DNA from: Prochlorococcus sp. AG-363-P08
GTDB taxonomy: Bacteria; Cyanobacteriota; Cyanobacteriia; PCC-6307; Cyanobiaceae
DNA: 64,000 nucleotides
Assembly (NCBI GenBank): GCA_003278195.1
Contig: QCGE01000001.1
Coordinates: forward strand, 62,001-126,000
Reading direction: 5' to 3'
The position numbers and the translations under genes are program-made. Below are positions 30,603-56,236 of the stretch, in pieces (position 1 is the first letter of the stretch; each line of letters opens with the position of its first letter). Below the pieces are notes generated by a model. That model was not told where the DNA came from. It worked only from the letters and a program-made list of their open reading frames with translations, and ran no database searches.

Positions 30603-32143
30603 GCCTTCCCTTCTTACAAACGAATATTGAATTACGTCGATGGCGGGAAAGCCAATCTTGTGAAATATTTTTTGTGCCTACAATGGGATCCTTGCACAAG
30701 GGTCATAGTTCTCTTATTAGTGCTCCAAAAAATATTAAATTGAATAAACCATTTAAAGTTATAACAAGCATTTTTATAAATCCGCTTCAATTTGGAAAAA
30801 ATGAGGATTTTGAAAAATATCCAAGAACTATTGACAAAGACTGTGAAGTAGCAGAAGAAGCCGGGGCTTCTGCAATATGGGCTCCTTCATTTGAAGATAT
30901 CTTTCCTGGTGGCTTGTCAAACACCTGCCAAGTCAAGGCACCATCTGATCTTCAGAAATATCTTTGCGGTTTTCATAGAAATGGTCACTTTGACGGAGTA
31001 GCTACCGTTGTAACTAGATTATTAAGTCTGGTACGCCCTGAAATTTTAATCCTAGGGGAGAAGGACTGGCAGCAATTAATAATCTTGCGTAAACTAATAT
31101 CTGATCTAGGACTTCCTATTAAAGTTCTATCAGTTGCAACAGTCAGAGATGAGAATGGAATCCCTTATAGTTCTAGAAATAATTACCTCACTAAATCAGA
31201 GAAAAAGAATTTAATATTCTTCTCTCAGACATTAAAGAACACTAATAAAAAATTCAAGTTGGAGGGTAAGCTTAACAATACTGAGCTGAAAAACGAATTA
31301 ATTAAACATGATTTGAAGGTGGAATACATTGAAGCTGTTGATCCATTTACACTTCAACCGACCAATGCAATCAAAAACCACACCTTACTAGCAGCTGCCG
31401 TGAGATGTGGAAACACTCGCCTAATAGATCACACTTTTCTCATGACTCGTAAACCTGTTGTTGCAATTGATGGTCCTGCAGGGGCAGGTAAAAGCACTGT
31501 CACGAAACTCTTCGCAAAAAGATTGCAATTGATTTATCTAGATACTGGCTCAATGTATCGCGCTGTTACTTGGTTAATTCAGAAAGAAAATATAGACCCA
31601 AATGACGAACAAAGGATCAGGAAACTACTTGAGAATCTACAACTTGAGCTCAAATTCTCTGATTCAGGTAATCAAATTATTATAATCAACAAGCTAGATG
31701 CAACAGATGCAATAAGGGAACAAACTGTAACTAATCTAGTATCTACAATTGCCTCAAATGTTGACGTACGTAAAGCACTAACTACTCAACAAAAGCAAAT
31801 CGGAAGTGATGGTGGCTTAGTGGCTGAGGGAAGGGATATTGGAACTACTGTATTCCCAGATGCAGAGCTAAAGATCTTCTTAACAGCAAGCCCTAAGGAA
31901 AGAGCAAGGCGAAGAAGAGATGATCTGATACAAAGAGGACAAATTGTAGAAGATATAAAAATAATTGAAAAACAGATCATCGAGAGAGACTACAAAGATA
32001 GCTCTAGAAAAGTGTCACCTTTAAGAAAGGCAGATGATGCTATAGAAGTAATTACAGATGGAATGGATATTGAGAAGGTGGTTAATGAATTAGTAGAGCT
32101 TTTTCGTCTTAATGTTCCTCAAGAAGTATGGTCTAGTCATTAG
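30599..32143 (+). CDS. panC/cmk: Bifunctional pantoate-beta-alanine ligase / cytidylate kinase
   Basis: About 514 aa from CTG 30599. PanC half: VPTMGSLHKGHSSLI (HxGH), ITSIFINPLQFG, DGVATVVTRLL; kinase half from residue about 280: VVAIDGPAGAGKSTVTKLFAKRLQLIYLDTGSMYRAVTW. PanC makes pantothenate; Cmk phosphorylates CMP/dCMP. This fusion is typical of cyanobacteria. The track's GTG 30674 would remove the first strand and helix before PTMG; the in-frame upstream sequence LPFLQTNIELRRWRESQSCEIFFVPTMG matches a normal PanC N-terminus, and AAGGAG lies 8 bp before the CTG. No ATG/GTG/TTG is available between the upstream stop (TAA 30584-30586) and 30674. Confidence 0.93.
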   Translation: MSLPFLQTNIELRRWRESQSCEIFFVPTMGSLHKGHSSLISAPKNIKLNKPFKVITSIFINPLQFGKNEDFEKYPRTIDKDCEVAEEAGASAIWAPSFEDIFPGGLSNTCQVKAPSDLQKYLCGFHRNGHFDGVATVVTRLLSLVRPEILILGEKDWQQLIILRKLISDLGLPIKVLSVATVRDENGIPYSSRNNYLTKSEKKNLIFFSQTLKNTNKKFKLEGKLNNTELKNELIKHDLKVEYIEAVDPFTLQPTNAIKNHTLLAAAVRCGNTRLIDHTFLMTRKPVVAIDGPAGAGKSTVTKLFAKRLQLIYLDTGSMYRAVTWLIQKENIDPNDEQRIRKLLENLQLELKFSDSGNQIIIINKLDATDAIREQTVTNLVSTIASNVDVRKALTTQQKQIGSDGGLVAEGRDIGTTVFPDAELKIFLTASPKERARRRRDDLIQRGQIVEDIKIIEKQIIERDYKDSSRKVSPLRKADDAIEVITDGMDIEKVVNELVELFRLNVPQEVWSSH

Positions 32144-35121: not shown

Positions 35122-35568
35122 TTAAAAGATTTCATGTGAAGGTGGAAAAAGAGAGAAAAGTTCTCTACATATCTCCTTGAGCTGAAGCAGGTGAACAGGC
35201 TCTGGCAAGTAGTCACCTGTTGGTTTCCATTCTCCAACAGTAGCCAACCTCCATCTCTCTCCCTCATAGGTCATTCCTCTAATTACCACTCCCAAAAGAT
35301 GCGGTTTAACTGATCCAACTTCCTCTCCACTTAAACGAAGCTGCAAAAGCAGGCTCCGACACTGCAAACGTGGAGACCAACCTGGGAAATGGAAAGACAT
35401 ATCTAGAGACTCAGCCTCAGACCACATACGTGTCTGAGGATCATCACGCCATGGAGTCAAATTCACAGAAGCCTCTGGATAATGAAGGCGTACAAGCGCT
35501 ACTGACGAAGCAAGTGCATGGGCAAAATCCAAGCTGTGAACATAATCAGATGCATTCACCAATCCCAC
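35122..35568 (-). CDS. Conserved picocyanobacterial hypothetical protein
   Basis: 148 aa from GTG 35568. No family recognised. LDFAHALASSVALVRLHYPEASVNLTPWRDDPQTRMWSEAESLDMSFHFPGWSPRLQCRSLLLQLRL and GVVIRGMTYEGERWRLATVGEWKPTGDYLPEPVHLLQLKEICRELFSLFPP are unusually Trp-rich (five) and probably a small soluble alpha/beta domain. Adjacent to and upstream of ho1 on the same strand, so it may be cotranscribed with the bilin genes; a role in that pathway is inference only. Confidence 0.6.
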   Translation of the reverse strand: MGLVNASDYVHSLDFAHALASSVALVRLHYPEASVNLTPWRDDPQTRMWSEAESLDMSFHFPGWSPRLQCRSLLLQLRLSGEEVGSVKPHLLGVVIRGMTYEGERWRLATVGEWKPTGDYLPEPVHLLQLKEICRELFSLFPPSHEIF

Positions 35569-35714: not shown

Positions 35715-37034
35715 ATGAATTTCCTGAAGGCTATCACTAAAATTTCTAAATATGCAATAGTAGGAGGTTTAGCTGCTACAACACATGCAATCTCTCTACT
35801 CATTTTAAGCAATTATTTACCACTTTGGACTAGTAATCTTAGTGGATTCTTATTAGCGTCTTGCATAAGCTACTTAGGGCATTCAATATTTACTTTTAGA
35901 AAAGCAACAAACGGAAATCGCTTTGCCAAAAGATGGTTGATTTTTCAATTTATTTTAAATATAATTGTCTGCTTACTATTACCAATAATATTAAGTTCAG
36001 TCAAACATCTACCTTTCACTACATGGATATTTGTACTTTCTCCAACATTAATAAATGCTTTAATCTGGTCTAATGCTGCAAGATTTAGCTTTATTAGAAT
36101 CTATTCCTCTAGATATAAGCCAATAATACATGCTGACGACCTAGGCCTTTCGAATGCAACCAATAAAGCAATTTTCTCACTGGCAAAAAACAATGAACTC
36201 AATAGTGCCAGCATTTTAATTAATGGAGCAGAGGTGGAATCTGCTATTAAAGATTGGCAAGAGAAGTTTACTTTCCCACTTACACTTCATGTATGCTTAA
36301 CTGAAGGTAAAGCAGTCTCTTCTCAAGAAGGGAAAAGTCAAGTAACTAATAGTCAAGGTATATTGAATCAAAGCTTTGGCAAGCTAATTCTTTACTCCTT
36401 GCTTCCAAAAAACAATTCCAACCGAATATCTGTCGAGAATCAAATAAAAAAAGAAATTAGTGCTCAGATAAATCTTTTCAAAGAATTGACTTCTTATGAT
36501 TCTATTTGGATAGACGGTCATCAACATATTCATTTAATTCCTATTGTCCTTGATGTTATTCTTAACCTATCGAAAGGGGCTAAAGTTACTTGGCTAAGAA
36601 CTACTTTTGAGCCAATACCTACAGGGGTATCACTTAATTACTGGAAGAAAAGCATTCTTCAAGGAGGCCTAATAAAATGGTTTGTTCTTCAACTTCTAAC
36701 AATTCTTGCAAAACCAAGGATAAAGCAAGCACAAATCAAAACTAATGCAGGTTTTGCTGGAATACTATTTACAGGGCAAATGATTGAACAACCACTTTTT
36801 GCATGTTTTAAAGAACTACAAACCATAGAGCCAAGAAATGGTCAAACCCCATCAATTCTGCTTACGCATCCAGCTGCAGAAATTGATTACAAGGATCTTG
36901 ATAATAAAAAATTACTAGCCTTCGAACTATCAAAAAAATTTATTTCTTCAAGCTTAAGACAAAAAGAATGGGATGAATTAAAAAGATTAAAATTACTTTC
37001 TGACTATTCTAGTCTTGGCAGTGAATCTTTCTAA
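35715..37034 (+). CDS. GtrA-like flippase fused to YdjC/ChbG-type deacetylase
   Basis: 439 aa. Residues 1-125 are a GtrA-like domain with four hydrophobic segments (YAIVGGLAATTHAISLLIL, LSGFLLASCISYLGHSIFTF, FQFILNIIVCLLLPIIL, WIFVLSPTLINALIWSNAARFSFI). From residue 136 comes a YdjC domain: PIIHADDLGLSNATNKAI (metal Asp), TLHVCLTEGK, SIWIDGHQHIHLIP (metal His pair), LLTHPAA. GtrA flips polyprenyl-phosphate sugars; YdjC enzymes remove acetyl groups from amino sugars, as NaxD does in Francisella. Its 3' end overlaps the convergent GtrB-like gene by 26 bp. Confidence 0.85.
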   Translation: MNFLKAITKISKYAIVGGLAATTHAISLLILSNYLPLWTSNLSGFLLASCISYLGHSIFTFRKATNGNRFAKRWLIFQFILNIIVCLLLPIILSSVKHLPFTTWIFVLSPTLINALIWSNAARFSFIRIYSSRYKPIIHADDLGLSNATNKAIFSLAKNNELNSASILINGAEVESAIKDWQEKFTFPLTLHVCLTEGKAVSSQEGKSQVTNSQGILNQSFGKLILYSLLPKNNSNRISVENQIKKEISAQINLFKELTSYDSIWIDGHQHIHLIPIVLDVILNLSKGAKVTWLRTTFEPIPTGVSLNYWKKSILQGGLIKWFVLQLLTILAKPRIKQAQIKTNAGFAGILFTGQMIEQPLFACFKELQTIEPRNGQTPSILLTHPAAEIDYKDLDNKKLLAFELSKKFISSSLRQKEWDELKRLKLLSDYSSLGSESF

Positions 37035-37986
37035 TAAAATAATGAGGTCTCGCTTTTGTATCCACATAAACCCTGCCAATATAATCACCTAGTACTCCTA
37101 TTCCAATAAGTTGTACGCCTCCTAGAAACAAAACAGCCACAATCAAAGAAGCATATCCAGGAACATCAATCCCATTAAAAATAGTTTGTAAAATAATAAC
37201 CAAAGCATATAATATACTGATTAATGAAACTGTTATCCCTAAAAAACTCCAGATTTTTAAAGGTAAGACAGAAAAAGAAAATATTCCATCTAATGCATAG
37301 CCCAACAACTTCAAAGGGCTCCAAGAACTAATTCCCCCAATACGGTTAACCCTTTTATAACTAACTTCTATACTTCTAAAACCTGTCCAAGGCACTAACC
37401 CTTTAGAGAACCTACTAAATTCACGCATTTCTGTTAACGCATTTACTACAGGTGCACTTAGTAATCGATAATCGCCTGCTCCTTCAGTTAACTGGATAGA
37501 GTCAACAAGTCGGTTGAACACTTTGTAGAACCATGAGGCAGTAGTTATTTTCAAGAGCGACTCTTGATCACGACTATCCCTTACAGCAGTAACAATCTCT
37601 GCACCATTAGTCCATTCAAAAACCATTTCATCAATTAACTCAGGCGGATGTTGCAAATCAGAGTCAATCAAAACAACTGCATCGCAATTGCCTTTTGCAT
37701 AATCAAGGCCCGCAAGCATTGCAGACTCTTTACCGAAGTTTCTAGTTAATTCAAGTAAAACCAATTTTTCAGGGATTGCATGATCAACTTGCTTGCCATG
37801 CCAATCAAGAATTCTGGAAACTGTTCTATCCCTTGAACCATCATCTACCAAAACCAATCGATCAACTTTAGGTATCGCAACAACCCGCTCAATAAAATGC
37901 TCTATAGCCTCCTCTTCGTTGTAACACGCTGCTACCACCCAGATCTGAGAGGTACCTCCAGAATTAGTCAAAGGAGAATAGGTCAT
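37009..37986 (-). CDS. GtrB-like polyprenyl-phosphate glycosyltransferase (GT2)
   Basis: 325 aa. VVAACYNEEEAIEHFIERV, LVLVDDGSRDRT, LLELTRNFGKESAMLAGLDYAKGN, AVVLIDSDLQHPPELI (DxD-like metal site) and GAGDYRLLSAPVVNALTEM are GT2 DPM1/GtrB signatures; two C-terminal membrane helices (IWSFLGITVSLISILYALVIILQTIF and ASLIVAVLFLGGVQLIGIGVLGDYIGRVY) complete the fold. It would add a sugar from a nucleotide donor to polyprenyl phosphate on the cytoplasmic face, for the GtrA-YdjC partner encoded convergently. Confidence 0.9.
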   Translation of the reverse strand: MTYSPLTNSGGTSQIWVVAACYNEEEAIEHFIERVVAIPKVDRLVLVDDGSRDRTVSRILDWHGKQVDHAIPEKLVLLELTRNFGKESAMLAGLDYAKGNCDAVVLIDSDLQHPPELIDEMVFEWTNGAEIVTAVRDSRDQESLLKITTASWFYKVFNRLVDSIQLTEGAGDYRLLSAPVVNALTEMREFSRFSKGLVPWTGFRSIEVSYKRVNRIGGISSWSPLKLLGYALDGIFSFSVLPLKIWSFLGITVSLISILYALVIILQTIFNGIDVPGYASLIVAVLFLGGVQLIGIGVLGDYIGRVYVDTKARPHYFIRKIHCQD

Positions 37987-52875: not shown

Positions 52876-54330
52876 GTGGAACCTAGACCTCTAATCCCTG
52901 TAATCCTTTCTGGTGGATCAGGAACACGGCTTTGGCCCCTTTCCAGAGCAAGCTATCCAAAACAATACTGGGCATTAGGTGAGTCGACTAATAAAACCCT
53001 TCTTCAACAAACTCAAGAAAGACTGCATGGTCTTGAGGGATTGTCTGAACCTTTATTGATTTGCCACGAAGATCATCGATTCATAGTTGCAGAGCAAATG
53101 CGGCAATTAAACATCTCACCGAGAACCATACTTTTAGAGCCAATTGGTCGCAATACAGCTCCCGCAATAGCAGTAGCTGCACTTCAAGCAACTGAACGAG
53201 GAGAAGATCCCCTTCTTCTAGTTTTATCAGCTGATCATCTGATACAAAATGCCTCTGAATTCCGTAAAACAATCACAGCTGGTCGAAATGCTGCAGAGGA
53301 AGGGAGGTTAGTAACTTTTGGAATTATCCCAACACGTCCTGAAACTGGATATGGGTATATAGAAGTTGAGAAACCACTAATCAATCACAAATCAAAAGGA
53401 TTGCCAATTTTGAGGTTTGTAGAAAAGCCCAACAAGATAACAGCAGAAAAATTTCTTGTTGAAGGCCGTTTTACTTGGAATAGCGGCATATTTCTCTTTA
53501 AAGCAAGTGCAATATTGAGCGAATTAGAGCGACTTGCTCCAGAAATTGTTAGCTGCTGTAGAGCATCACTAGAAAATGAAATGCCAGATATGGAATTTTT
53601 AAGACTTGAAAGAGAAGCTTTTGCTAATTGCCCAAATGTGGCTATCGACGTAGCTGTTATGGAAAAAACCAATTTAGGAACAGTACTACCACTAGATGCT
53701 GGATGGAGTGATGTGGGTAGTTGGGGTGCACTTTGGGATACTGCCAAAAAAGATAACGATGGCAACGTATTAAGAGGTCGCGTTATTACAGAAAAGAGTG
53801 AGAATTGTTATCTCCGCAGCGAGCATAGGCTTGTAGTTGGACTTGGAATTAAAAATCTTGTAGTTGTTGAAACTGATGATGCAATTCTGGTCACCAACCG
53901 AGAACAATCACAAGAAGTGAAAACTATTGTTAATCAACTTGAAAGCGATGGAAGTCCCGAAGGAAAAGCACATAGAAAAATATATAGGCCATGGGGTTAT
54001 TACACTAGTGTGGTAGAAGATAATCGCTGGCAAGTTAAAAGGATTGTGGTCAAGCCAGGAGAAAGCCTTTCTCTACAAATGCACCATCATCGTGCAGAAC
54101 ATTGGATCGTCGTCAAAGGTACGGCTCTAGTAGAACGTGATGGTGCTAAACAGTTGTTAGGGGAAAACGAAAGTACTTATATCCCGCTTGGTTGCAAGCA
54201 TAGATTAACAAATCCAGGCAAAATGCCAATGGAGCTAATAGAAGTTCAAAGTGGTGCGTATTTAGGTGAAGATGACATTATACGTTTTGAAGATAGGTAC
54301 AAAAGACTAAACAAAATAAAGCTTGCTTAG
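52876..54330 (+). CDS. manC: Mannose-1-phosphate guanylyltransferase (with mannose-6-phosphate isomerase domain)
   Basis: 484 aa from GTG 52876. Nucleotidyltransferase motif VILSGGSGTRLWPLSRASYPKQYWAL, then LLLVLSADHLI, FVEKPN, WNSGIFLFKA; a C-terminal cupin HRPWGYYTSVVEDNRWQVKRIVVKPGESLSLQMHHHRAEHWIVVKGTALVERD (isomerase type II). It makes GDP-mannose and possibly fructose-6-phosphate to mannose-6-phosphate, for surface glycans. It could donate mannose units for a lipid-linked sugar system such as the GtrB one here (inference). Convergent with glmS, 1 bp between the stops. Confidence 0.95.
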   Translation: MEPRPLIPVILSGGSGTRLWPLSRASYPKQYWALGESTNKTLLQQTQERLHGLEGLSEPLLICHEDHRFIVAEQMRQLNISPRTILLEPIGRNTAPAIAVAALQATERGEDPLLLVLSADHLIQNASEFRKTITAGRNAAEEGRLVTFGIIPTRPETGYGYIEVEKPLINHKSKGLPILRFVEKPNKITAEKFLVEGRFTWNSGIFLFKASAILSELERLAPEIVSCCRASLENEMPDMEFLRLEREAFANCPNVAIDVAVMEKTNLGTVLPLDAGWSDVGSWGALWDTAKKDNDGNVLRGRVITEKSENCYLRSEHRLVVGLGIKNLVVVETDDAILVTNREQSQEVKTIVNQLESDGSPEGKAHRKIYRPWGYYTSVVEDNRWQVKRIVVKPGESLSLQMHHHRAEHWIVVKGTALVERDGAKQLLGENESTYIPLGCKHRLTNPGKMPMELIEVQSGAYLGEDDIIRFEDRYKRLNKIKLA

Positions 54331-54331
54331 A

Positions 54332-56236
54332 TTATTCAACAGTGACACTTTTTGCTAAGTTCCTAGGCTGATCAACATCAAGTCCTCTATGTGCTGCAAT
54401 ATGATAACTCAATAATTGCATAGGGATCACTGAGAATAATGGACTAATCCATTCACTAACTTTTGGCAAAGGAAGTAAAGAATCAAATATTTTCGTATCA
54501 GGTCCCTCAGGCGCAATTCCAATAAGCTGAGCATCCCTTGCCTTAGCTTCCTGAGCGTTACTTAATACCTTATCAAAGACAACTCCAGGCATCGCAATAG
54601 ATATAACAGGGACACTAGGGTCTAACAAAGCAATTGGACCATGCTTCATTTCTCCAGCTGGATATCCCTCAGCATGAATATAACTAATTTCCTTAAGTTT
54701 CAGCGCTCCTTCTAAAGCTATTGGATAGTTAATACCTCTTCCTAAAAAAATCACATCTTGAATATTTGCAAAATGAGGTGCTAATTCCTCAGAAATCTGG
54801 TCATGTTTTTTTACTAATAGTCGAAGTTGTCCCGGAACTGCTCGAAGCTCATTAGTAAGATTTAAAATCTCCTCCTGACTACGACTTTTACGACGTGCAG
54901 CAAACATTAATGCAAGGCCATAAAAGGCAAATAATTGTCCAAGAAATGTTTTTGTTGCTGCAACTCCAACCTCCATTCCAGCTCCTATGTCAAGAATATT
55001 TGGAACTTGTCTAGCCAAAGAACTTTCTGGGCGATTAGTGACTCCCAACTGACGCGATGCAAACGCAGGATCTCCATGCTCTGTTCTTCTAGTAGCTTCC
55101 ATCAAAAGAGCTGCCAATGTATCTGCTGTCTCACCTGACTGAGTAACACCAATTGTCAAAGTATTAGGCATTAAAGGAGGGGCTGCATACCTGAATTCAC
55201 TTGCATAGAAAACTGAAGTAGGAATTCCAGAAAACTGTTCAAGAAGATAAGCTCCAACCAATGCGGCATGTCGGCTAGTACCACAAGCAAGAATCTGAAC
55301 TCGCTCAATCCCTTGATAAAAAGAGTTATCAAATGGAAATGCAACTGGAGTATCAACAGAAAGTCCTTCAGGCAAATGCCTAGATACCCACAATTCAGCT
55401 ATTTCGGGCTGCTCATGAATCTCTTTAAGCATGTAATGCCGAAAATTACGCTTATCAGTTACATAATCTGAACCGCTTAATAGCGTTGGACTCCTCTGTT
55501 GTCTAATCCCTTGAGCGTCATACAACTCGATTCCAAGAGGAGTTAATAAAGCAACTTCGCCATCTTCCATCGGCAAAATAGTTCTTGTAAAGCCAGCAAG
55601 CGCAGGGGTATCACTTGCACAAAGAAATTCACCCTCTCCCAAGCCAATTAGCAAAGGTGCTTGCTTACGCGCCACTACTAAGGCCTCAGGAGTTTTAGAC
55701 CAAATAACCGCAATTGCATAAGCGCCTGTCAACTGAAGTGAAACTTTCTGAACAGCTGACAACAACATTGCGCCAGTTTTCACGCTGCTTTCTAATTCCA
55801 AACTTTTAAGCTCTCTCGCAATCAGATGAGGGATTACTTCTGTATCAGTTTCAGAATTAAAAACAACTCCTTCTGCTTCAAGCTCCTCTTTTAAGGACCG
55901 ATAATTCTCAATAATTCCATTCTGAACAACTGCTATTTCACTAGCAGTATCTCTATGAGGATGAGCATTTCGCTCTTCAGGCTTGCCATGAGTTGCCCAC
56001 CTCGTATGTCCAATCCCTAGAAAACCTTCGGCACCTCCCTTCTCAACAAGTGCTGCAAGATTTGCAAGCTTACCCTTAGCCCGCTGACAGGTCATCAAAC
56101 CAAAATCAGCGTTCTCCCTTGAGGCAACTGTTGCAAGACCCGCGGAATCATATCCTCGGTATTCAAGCTGCTTTAAGCCTCCAAGAAGCAAAGGAGCTGC
56201 TTCACGAGAGCCAATAACCGCAACGATTCCACACAT
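54332..56236 (-). CDS. glmS: Glutamine-fructose-6-phosphate aminotransferase (isomerising)
   Basis: 634 aa. MCGIVAVIGS places the catalytic Cys at residue 2; GHTRWATHGKPEERNAHPH, VVQNGIIENY and FNSETDTEVIPHLI are the class II glutaminase; two SIS domains follow (ACGTSRHAALVGAYLLE, GVTQSGETADTLAAL, ISYIHAEGYPAGEMKHGPIALL) and it ends DQPRNLAKSVTVE. It makes glucosamine-6-phosphate, the entry to UDP-GlcNAc and hence peptidoglycan and lipid-linked amino sugars. A strong GC hairpin lies directly upstream of the start codon. Confidence 0.98.
   Translation of the reverse strand: MCGIVAVIGSREAAPLLLGGLKQLEYRGYDSAGLATVASRENADFGLMTCQRAKGKLANLAALVEKGGAEGFLGIGHTRWATHGKPEERNAHPHRDTASEIAVVQNGIIENYRSLKEELEAEGVVFNSETDTEVIPHLIARELKSLELESSVKTGAMLLSAVQKVSLQLTGAYAIAVIWSKTPEALVVARKQAPLLIGLGEGEFLCASDTPALAGFTRTILPMEDGEVALLTPLGIELYDAQGIRQQRSPTLLSGSDYVTDKRNFRHYMLKEIHEQPEIAELWVSRHLPEGLSVDTPVAFPFDNSFYQGIERVQILACGTSRHAALVGAYLLEQFSGIPTSVFYASEFRYAAPPLMPNTLTIGVTQSGETADTLAALLMEATRRTEHGDPAFASRQLGVTNRPESSLARQVPNILDIGAGMEVGVAATKTFLGQLFAFYGLALMFAARRKSRSQEEILNLTNELRAVPGQLRLLVKKHDQISEELAPHFANIQDVIFLGRGINYPIALEGALKLKEISYIHAEGYPAGEMKHGPIALLDPSVPVISIAMPGVVFDKVLSNAQEAKARDAQLIGIAPEGPDTKIFDSLLPLPKVSEWISPLFSVIPMQLLSYHIAAHRGLDVDQPRNLAKSVTVE

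Follow-up and report, generated by a model that had tools for sequence, protein, structure and literature searches.

In Bordetella, LgmA is a family 2 glycosyltransferase (GT2) and LgmC is a deacetylase. The lgmA, lgmB and lgmC genes are all required for the addition of glucosamine (GlcN) to lipid A, lgmD of the same cluster is not essential (PMC4993483), and LgmB is the inner-membrane GlcN transferase (PMC11401268). The Francisella system FlmF2/NaxD/FlmK consists of a polyprenyl-phosphate GT2, a YdjC-family deacetylase and an ArnT-like transferase. Its NaxD deacetylates undecaprenyl-phosphate-GalNAc. The flmF2 and flmK genes serve the decoration of lipid A with galactosamine (PMC4688374), and NaxD is a GalNAc deacetylase in Acinetobacter as well (PMC6635527). 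In the enterobacterial Arn pathway a sugar is loaded onto undecaprenyl phosphate (Und-P), deacylated on the lipid, flipped and transferred by a GT-C enzyme. The deacylating enzyme ArnD belongs to a different family and removes a formyl group; ArnE/F are SMR-type proteins. The GtrA/GtrB/GtrX and CsbB/GtcA/YfhO systems combine a putative flippase of the GtrA family with a GtrB-like synthase (PMC7389260).

The locus described here lies in a 64,000-nucleotide stretch of a Prochlorococcus genome (hereafter, the window) and comprises a gene that joins a GtrA domain to a YdjC domain and, tail to tail with it, a gene for a GtrB-like GT2 (Table 1). It resembles the Lgm system in logic and the FlmF2/NaxD/FlmK system in its enzyme families, and the step order would be that of Arn; however, the lgm genes are separate, with no GtrA-deacetylase fusion reported and with lipid A phosphates as the acceptor of GlcN, NaxD stands alone without a GtrA domain and works on GalNAc destined for a lipid A phosphate, and the arn genes are all separate and handle 4-formamido-arabinose. 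GtrA/GtrB/GtrX and CsbB/GtcA/YfhO share the pairing of GtrA with a GtrB-like enzyme but include neither a deacetylation step nor a YdjC domain. Our main reading, to which we assign a probability of about 0.6, is that the two genes form the cytoplasmic half of a condensed pathway of the Lgm/NaxD/Arn type, one that adds an amino sugar outside the cytoplasm.

Table 1. Features of the window (position 1 is its first letter).
Feature	Coordinates	Strand	Basis or remark
GtrA-YdjC fusion gene	35715..37034	+	439 aa, uninterrupted single reading frame
GtrA domain, residues 1-131, putative polyprenyl-phosphate-sugar flippase	35715..36107	+	Four AlphaFold2 helices; K+R distribution
YdjC/ChbG-type deacetylase domain, residues 132-439	36108..37031	+	Pfam, structure match, mapped D141/D142/H192/H269/H385
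GtrB-like GT2, putative polyprenyl-phosphate glycosyltransferase	37009..37986	-	325 aa; match to Synechocystis GtrB
Tail-to-tail overlap, fusion gene/GT2 gene	37009..37034	.	26 bp
glmS	54332-56236		Housekeeping gene, distant from the fusion/GT2 pair
manC	52876-54330		Housekeeping gene, distant from the fusion/GT2 pair
148-aa protein	35122-35568		Without Pfam or NCBIfam match
Pantoate-beta-alanine ligase + cytidylate kinase	30674-32143		Single 489-aa fusion protein

Both convergent reading frames and their shared 3' ends are present as the initial annotation had described them. In relatives the overlap ranges from -9 to +32 bp and is not conserved, so the 26-bp overlap reflects tight packing only. 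The single frame of the fusion gene carries both Pfam domains above their curated cut-offs, GtrA_DPMS_TM (PF04138) at residues 12-105 (40.0 bits against 26.1), recovered again in a scan of the host's own genome, and YdjC (PF04794) at residues 137-422 (127.9 bits against 29.7). Within the host's family 400 genomes were searched; 92 match the fusion gene, and in 85 of them the match spans both domains, which rules out a chance join or a frameshift of the assembly at the fusion point, a condition that the initial annotation had named as refuting. Many of the match rows contain one TGA, which in the case checked (L028) is the gene's own stop codon; in at least one genome (G120) the match holds several in-frame stops and looks decayed.

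The YdjC domain has the fold of its family. In VIA-align the YdjC part scores Z 23.6 to 2i5i, 23.3 to ChbG (7vi8), 20.7 to 8jqe and 18.4 to 2e67, and structures outside the YdjC family score 13.4 and below. The catalytic residues of ChbG are D10, D11, H61, H125 and H206 (PMC9402603), and in a HMMER alignment to 7VI8 they correspond to D141, D142, H192, H269 and H385 of the fusion. By this mapping D142, H192 and H269 are the metal ligands, D141 is the general base and H385 is the general acid. All five are invariant in the 27 aligned fusions. The metal residues that had been pointed out in the motifs HADD and DGHQHIH are thus part of a fuller set that includes H192 (in LTLHVCLTEG) and H385, and they are not missing from other strains. 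ChbG itself differs from the fusion in being soluble, in lacking a GtrA domain and in its substrate, diacetylchitobiose; the fusion does not reach the cut-off of the ChbG equivalog model (NF002559; 65 bits against 227). The best named NCBIfam model for the domain is HpnK (TIGR03473, 89 bits), which would suggest an HpnK-like enzyme acting on glycosylated hopanoids. This reading is scarcely credible, because the HpnK cut-off of 232.6 is not reached and the squalene-hopene cyclase domain (PF13243) was not found in any of ten fusion-bearing genomes, nine of them at least 90% complete; we therefore regard a hopanoid role as ruled unlikely.

The neighbouring product matches Pfam Glycos_transf_2 (83.3 bits) and aligns nearly end to end with the crystallised GtrB of Synechocystis (sll0501, PDB 5EKP; E = 4.9e-88 over residues 8-319), C-terminal membrane part included, confirming the assignment as a GtrB-like GT2. 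Its second-closest kin in the PDB is ArnC (9HWJ; E = 3.7e-38); both are synthases of polyprenyl-phosphate sugars. The GT2 is thus nearer to GtrB than to ArnC, in a comparison that contains no relative of known N-acetylhexosamine (HexNAc) specificity. The GT2 tree places it in a separate clade that is not one of demonstrated HexNAc specificity and gives it no firm nearest relative, and the tree was set aside as a guide to the sugar. That the sugar may be a HexNAc is suggested by the deacetylase partner, not by the GT2 sequence.

Fusion and GT2 are closely linked. A convergent GT2 adjoins the fusion at every one of the 30 loci read, of which the window is one, and a close GT2 orthologue occurs in 84 of the 400 family genomes, all 84 with a fusion-gene match, a co-occurrence that reports linkage and is not independent proof, as neighbours are gained and lost jointly. 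Eight genomes match the fusion gene without a GT2 orthologue: five have single-domain or partial matches, two are incomplete (G286, G336), and in one (G052) the GT2 is replaced. In this last genome a non-orthologous GT2 with 31% identity (L178, 9385-10383) occupies the same convergent position beside a retained fusion, an apparent non-orthologous swap, implying that the fusion retains a partner of the GT2 family through an exchange of the gene. In G130, a single-contig picocyanobacterial genome, a stand-alone 132-aa GtrA and the GT2 (L177, 2272-2670 and 1324-2289) sit between the usual flanking genes, icd and heme oxygenase, and YdjC is absent there. In G183 a stand-alone GtrA adjoins a GT2 of 38% identity. 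Taken together, these three genomes suggest that the core of the system consists of GtrA and GT2 and that deacetylation may be an added and separable step.

The retention of GtrA and GT2 without YdjC in G130 could also be explained if the product of the GT2 is a neutral sugar (e.g. glucose) on polyprenyl phosphate that feeds an ordinary GtrAB system of three components, and YdjC acts on something else, such as a soluble chito-oligosaccharide or a peptidoglycan-derived sugar. The proximity of the GT2 to Synechocystis GtrB among PDB structures fits such a scheme, as does the activity of ChbG-type YdjC enzymes on soluble disaccharides (PMC9402603). However, YdjC is physically fused to GtrA, its active site is invariant in all aligned fusions, and a strong GT2 relative adjoins YdjC in 20 of 29 distant YdjC loci, several of which also contain GtrA. 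Given these associations we consider a neutral-sugar system with a deacetylase that acts on another substrate quite improbable, and favor the deacetylation of a lipid-linked sugar.

An AlphaFold2 model of the fusion built with 27 relatives (pLDDT 88.4) contains four long helices (residues 3-31, 37-59, 69-92 and 101-130) followed by an alpha/beta barrel, in agreement with the four-helix GtrA-like domain proposed in the initial annotation. Over the 27 sequences, the mean numbers of K+R residues in the successive GtrA segments are 3.1, 0.4, 4.5, 0.4 and 5.1, so that positive charge is concentrated at the N-terminal end, in the loop that joins helix 2 to helix 3 and behind helix 4, and the other loops are nearly free of it. 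By the positive-inside rule this distribution predicts an N-in, C-in topology, and with both ends cytoplasmic the deacetylase domain is predicted to face the cytoplasm. R73 and N114 are invariant in the fusions and plausibly correspond to R95 and N132 of GtcA, which are needed for GtcA function (PMC7389260). When the GtrA part was modelled alone, the best Foldseek row was DPMS (9ep0), with a probability of 0.85 but an E-value of 0.76, and the VIA score against the DPMS membrane domain (Z 6.5) is weak and tied with unrelated helical rows. This weak likeness to the membrane domain of a synthase, along with the description of GtrA proteins in the literature only as putative flippases (PMC7389260), would fit a GtrA domain that serves as a membrane anchor or docking domain, bringing the deacetylase to the GT2 product while another protein does the flipping. 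We think this unlikely, because G130 keeps a stand-alone GtrA beside its GT2, implying that GtrA has a job without the deacetylase, and because the residues that plausibly match the function-essential pair of GtcA do not vary among the fusions. A putative flippase role of the GtrA domain is retained in our main reading.

Outside the picocyanobacteria the same parts occur as separate genes. Alphaproteobacteria carry GtrA, GT2 and YdjC as separate neighbouring genes, and genomes of one further group of the cyanobacterial phylum (f31) carry GT-C, GT2, GtrA and YdjC in this manner. At one of the f31 loci (L121), a PMT/ArnT-type GT-C shares a strand with the GT2, and the opposite strand carries GtrA and, 3 bases on, YdjC; a second (L129) has GtrA, GT-C, GT2 and YdjC all present. 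The caveat that homologues might show the domains only as separate, unlinked genes thus holds for their separateness beyond picocyanobacteria but not for linkage, since the genes are neighbours. In three Cyanobium genomes (L065, L066 and G081) an ArnT-like GT-C gene ends directly upstream of the start of the fusion, and its product matches ArnT (5EZM; E = 1.4e-21), so that both the GT2 and this GT-C have kin in the Arn pathway. From these loci and the separate-gene sets, the complete set appears to be GT-C, GtrA-YdjC and GT2. An ArnT-like profile gave no match in the host genome, which is 84% complete, and matched in each of 24 other picocyanobacterial genomes, fusion-bearing or not, and so, Cyanobium apart, the acceptor transferase shows no tie to the system.

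On our main reading, the GT2 would load polyprenyl phosphate, at the cytoplasmic face of the membrane, with an N-acetylhexosamine, which is most likely GlcNAc drawn from UDP-GlcNAc. The YdjC domain, located behind the fourth GtrA helix, would then remove the acetyl group by means of its bound metal, with D141 as the base and H385 as the acid, and the GtrA domain fused to it would carry the amino sugar on its polyprenyl phosphate across to the periplasmic face, where an ArnT/PMT-type GT-C may place the amino sugar on an envelope glycan, perhaps lipid A or the LPS core. The family memberships, the invariant catalytic residues, the GT2 linkage and the separate-gene versions with an ArnT-like GT-C support well the core of the earlier proposal, a lipid-linked sugar deacetylation like that of FlmF2/NaxD. 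The glmS and manC genes, which had been listed as possible sources of precursors, are indeed in the window, but carry no weight as evidence and were set aside as system components because they are housekeeping genes far from the pair.

As for the acceptor, lipid A of marine Synechococcus WH8102 and CC9311 is without phosphate (PMC4515613), and the acceptor would accordingly differ from that of the Bordetella Lgm system. The LPS of marine Synechococcus contains glucosamine and galacturonic acid and is without heptose, KDO and phosphate (PMC4515613), a composition that makes an amino sugar on the LPS core or lipid A plausible. A fusion of deacetylase and flippase would couple deacetylation to export. 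In a stricter form of this idea, GtrA would accept or export the lipid-linked sugar only after its deacetylation by the YdjC domain next to it in the chain; one polypeptide would then both edit and export, yielding a positively charged amino sugar on a picocyanobacterial LPS that is without the usual phosphates, heptose and KDO. We offer this obligatory coupling as possible but tentative.

The fusion is found only in picocyanobacteria, marine Prochlorococcus and Synechococcus among them. Among 386 Cyanobacteriota genomes, two-domain matches occur only in the host's family, and the other matches in the phylum are stand-alone YdjC proteins with frames mostly of about 280-310 aa. Across 84,980 species, a pattern scan whose motifs favour the picocyanobacterial family, and on which the absence of fusions outside Cyanobacteriota is based, returned fusions only from Prochlorococcus, Synechococcus, Cyanobium, Vulcanococcus and unnamed cyanobacteria. 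Synechococcus sp. WH7803 (L078) is one of the strains with the fusion. A GtrA-YdjC fusion is not described in the open-licence texts that made up the literature searched, and none of these texts treats YdjC and GtrA together. The parts and the pathway logic are already known; the fusion of a flippase-family domain with a deacetylase domain is new to the literature searched.

The evidence behind the common description of GtrA proteins as flippases is thin. That GtrA occurs naturally fused to an enzyme expected to edit a lipid-linked sugar is genetic evidence for its handling of this lipid. The fusion also makes it possible to assay editing and flipping in a single polypeptide, and G130, with YdjC lost and GtrA and GT2 kept, provides a natural contrast to its fusion-bearing relatives. 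The system looks like a condensed form of the pathway that in other bacteria places free amino sugars on the outer surface. For many marine Synechococcus and some Prochlorococcus it predicts an envelope that displays a free amino sugar, a feature that could bear on recognition by phages and grazers.

A 566-aa ArnT-like protein on another contig of the host (C29) was considered as a dedicated transferase and rejected, because its orthologues, present in 187 of the 400 family genomes, are enriched among those with the pair (71 of 84) but not specific to them (116 of 316 without the pair), and because it lies beside a GT2-GtrA gene of its own. It has no Pfam match, and its ArnT-like N-terminal motif was recognised by eye. 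In the same region of C29 (L136, 749-6815), which encodes several large membrane proteins, a DPM1-like GT2 and a GtrA domain are joined in one 370-aa protein. In G130, an ORF that resembles MTA/SAH nucleosidase by eye adjoins GtrA. Within the window, the 148-aa protein in Table 1 lies between heme oxygenase and the fusion gene and is kept in the relatives checked. The window holds a second fusion protein, of pantoate-beta-alanine ligase and cytidylate kinase, which is a known bifunctional arrangement in cyanobacteria.
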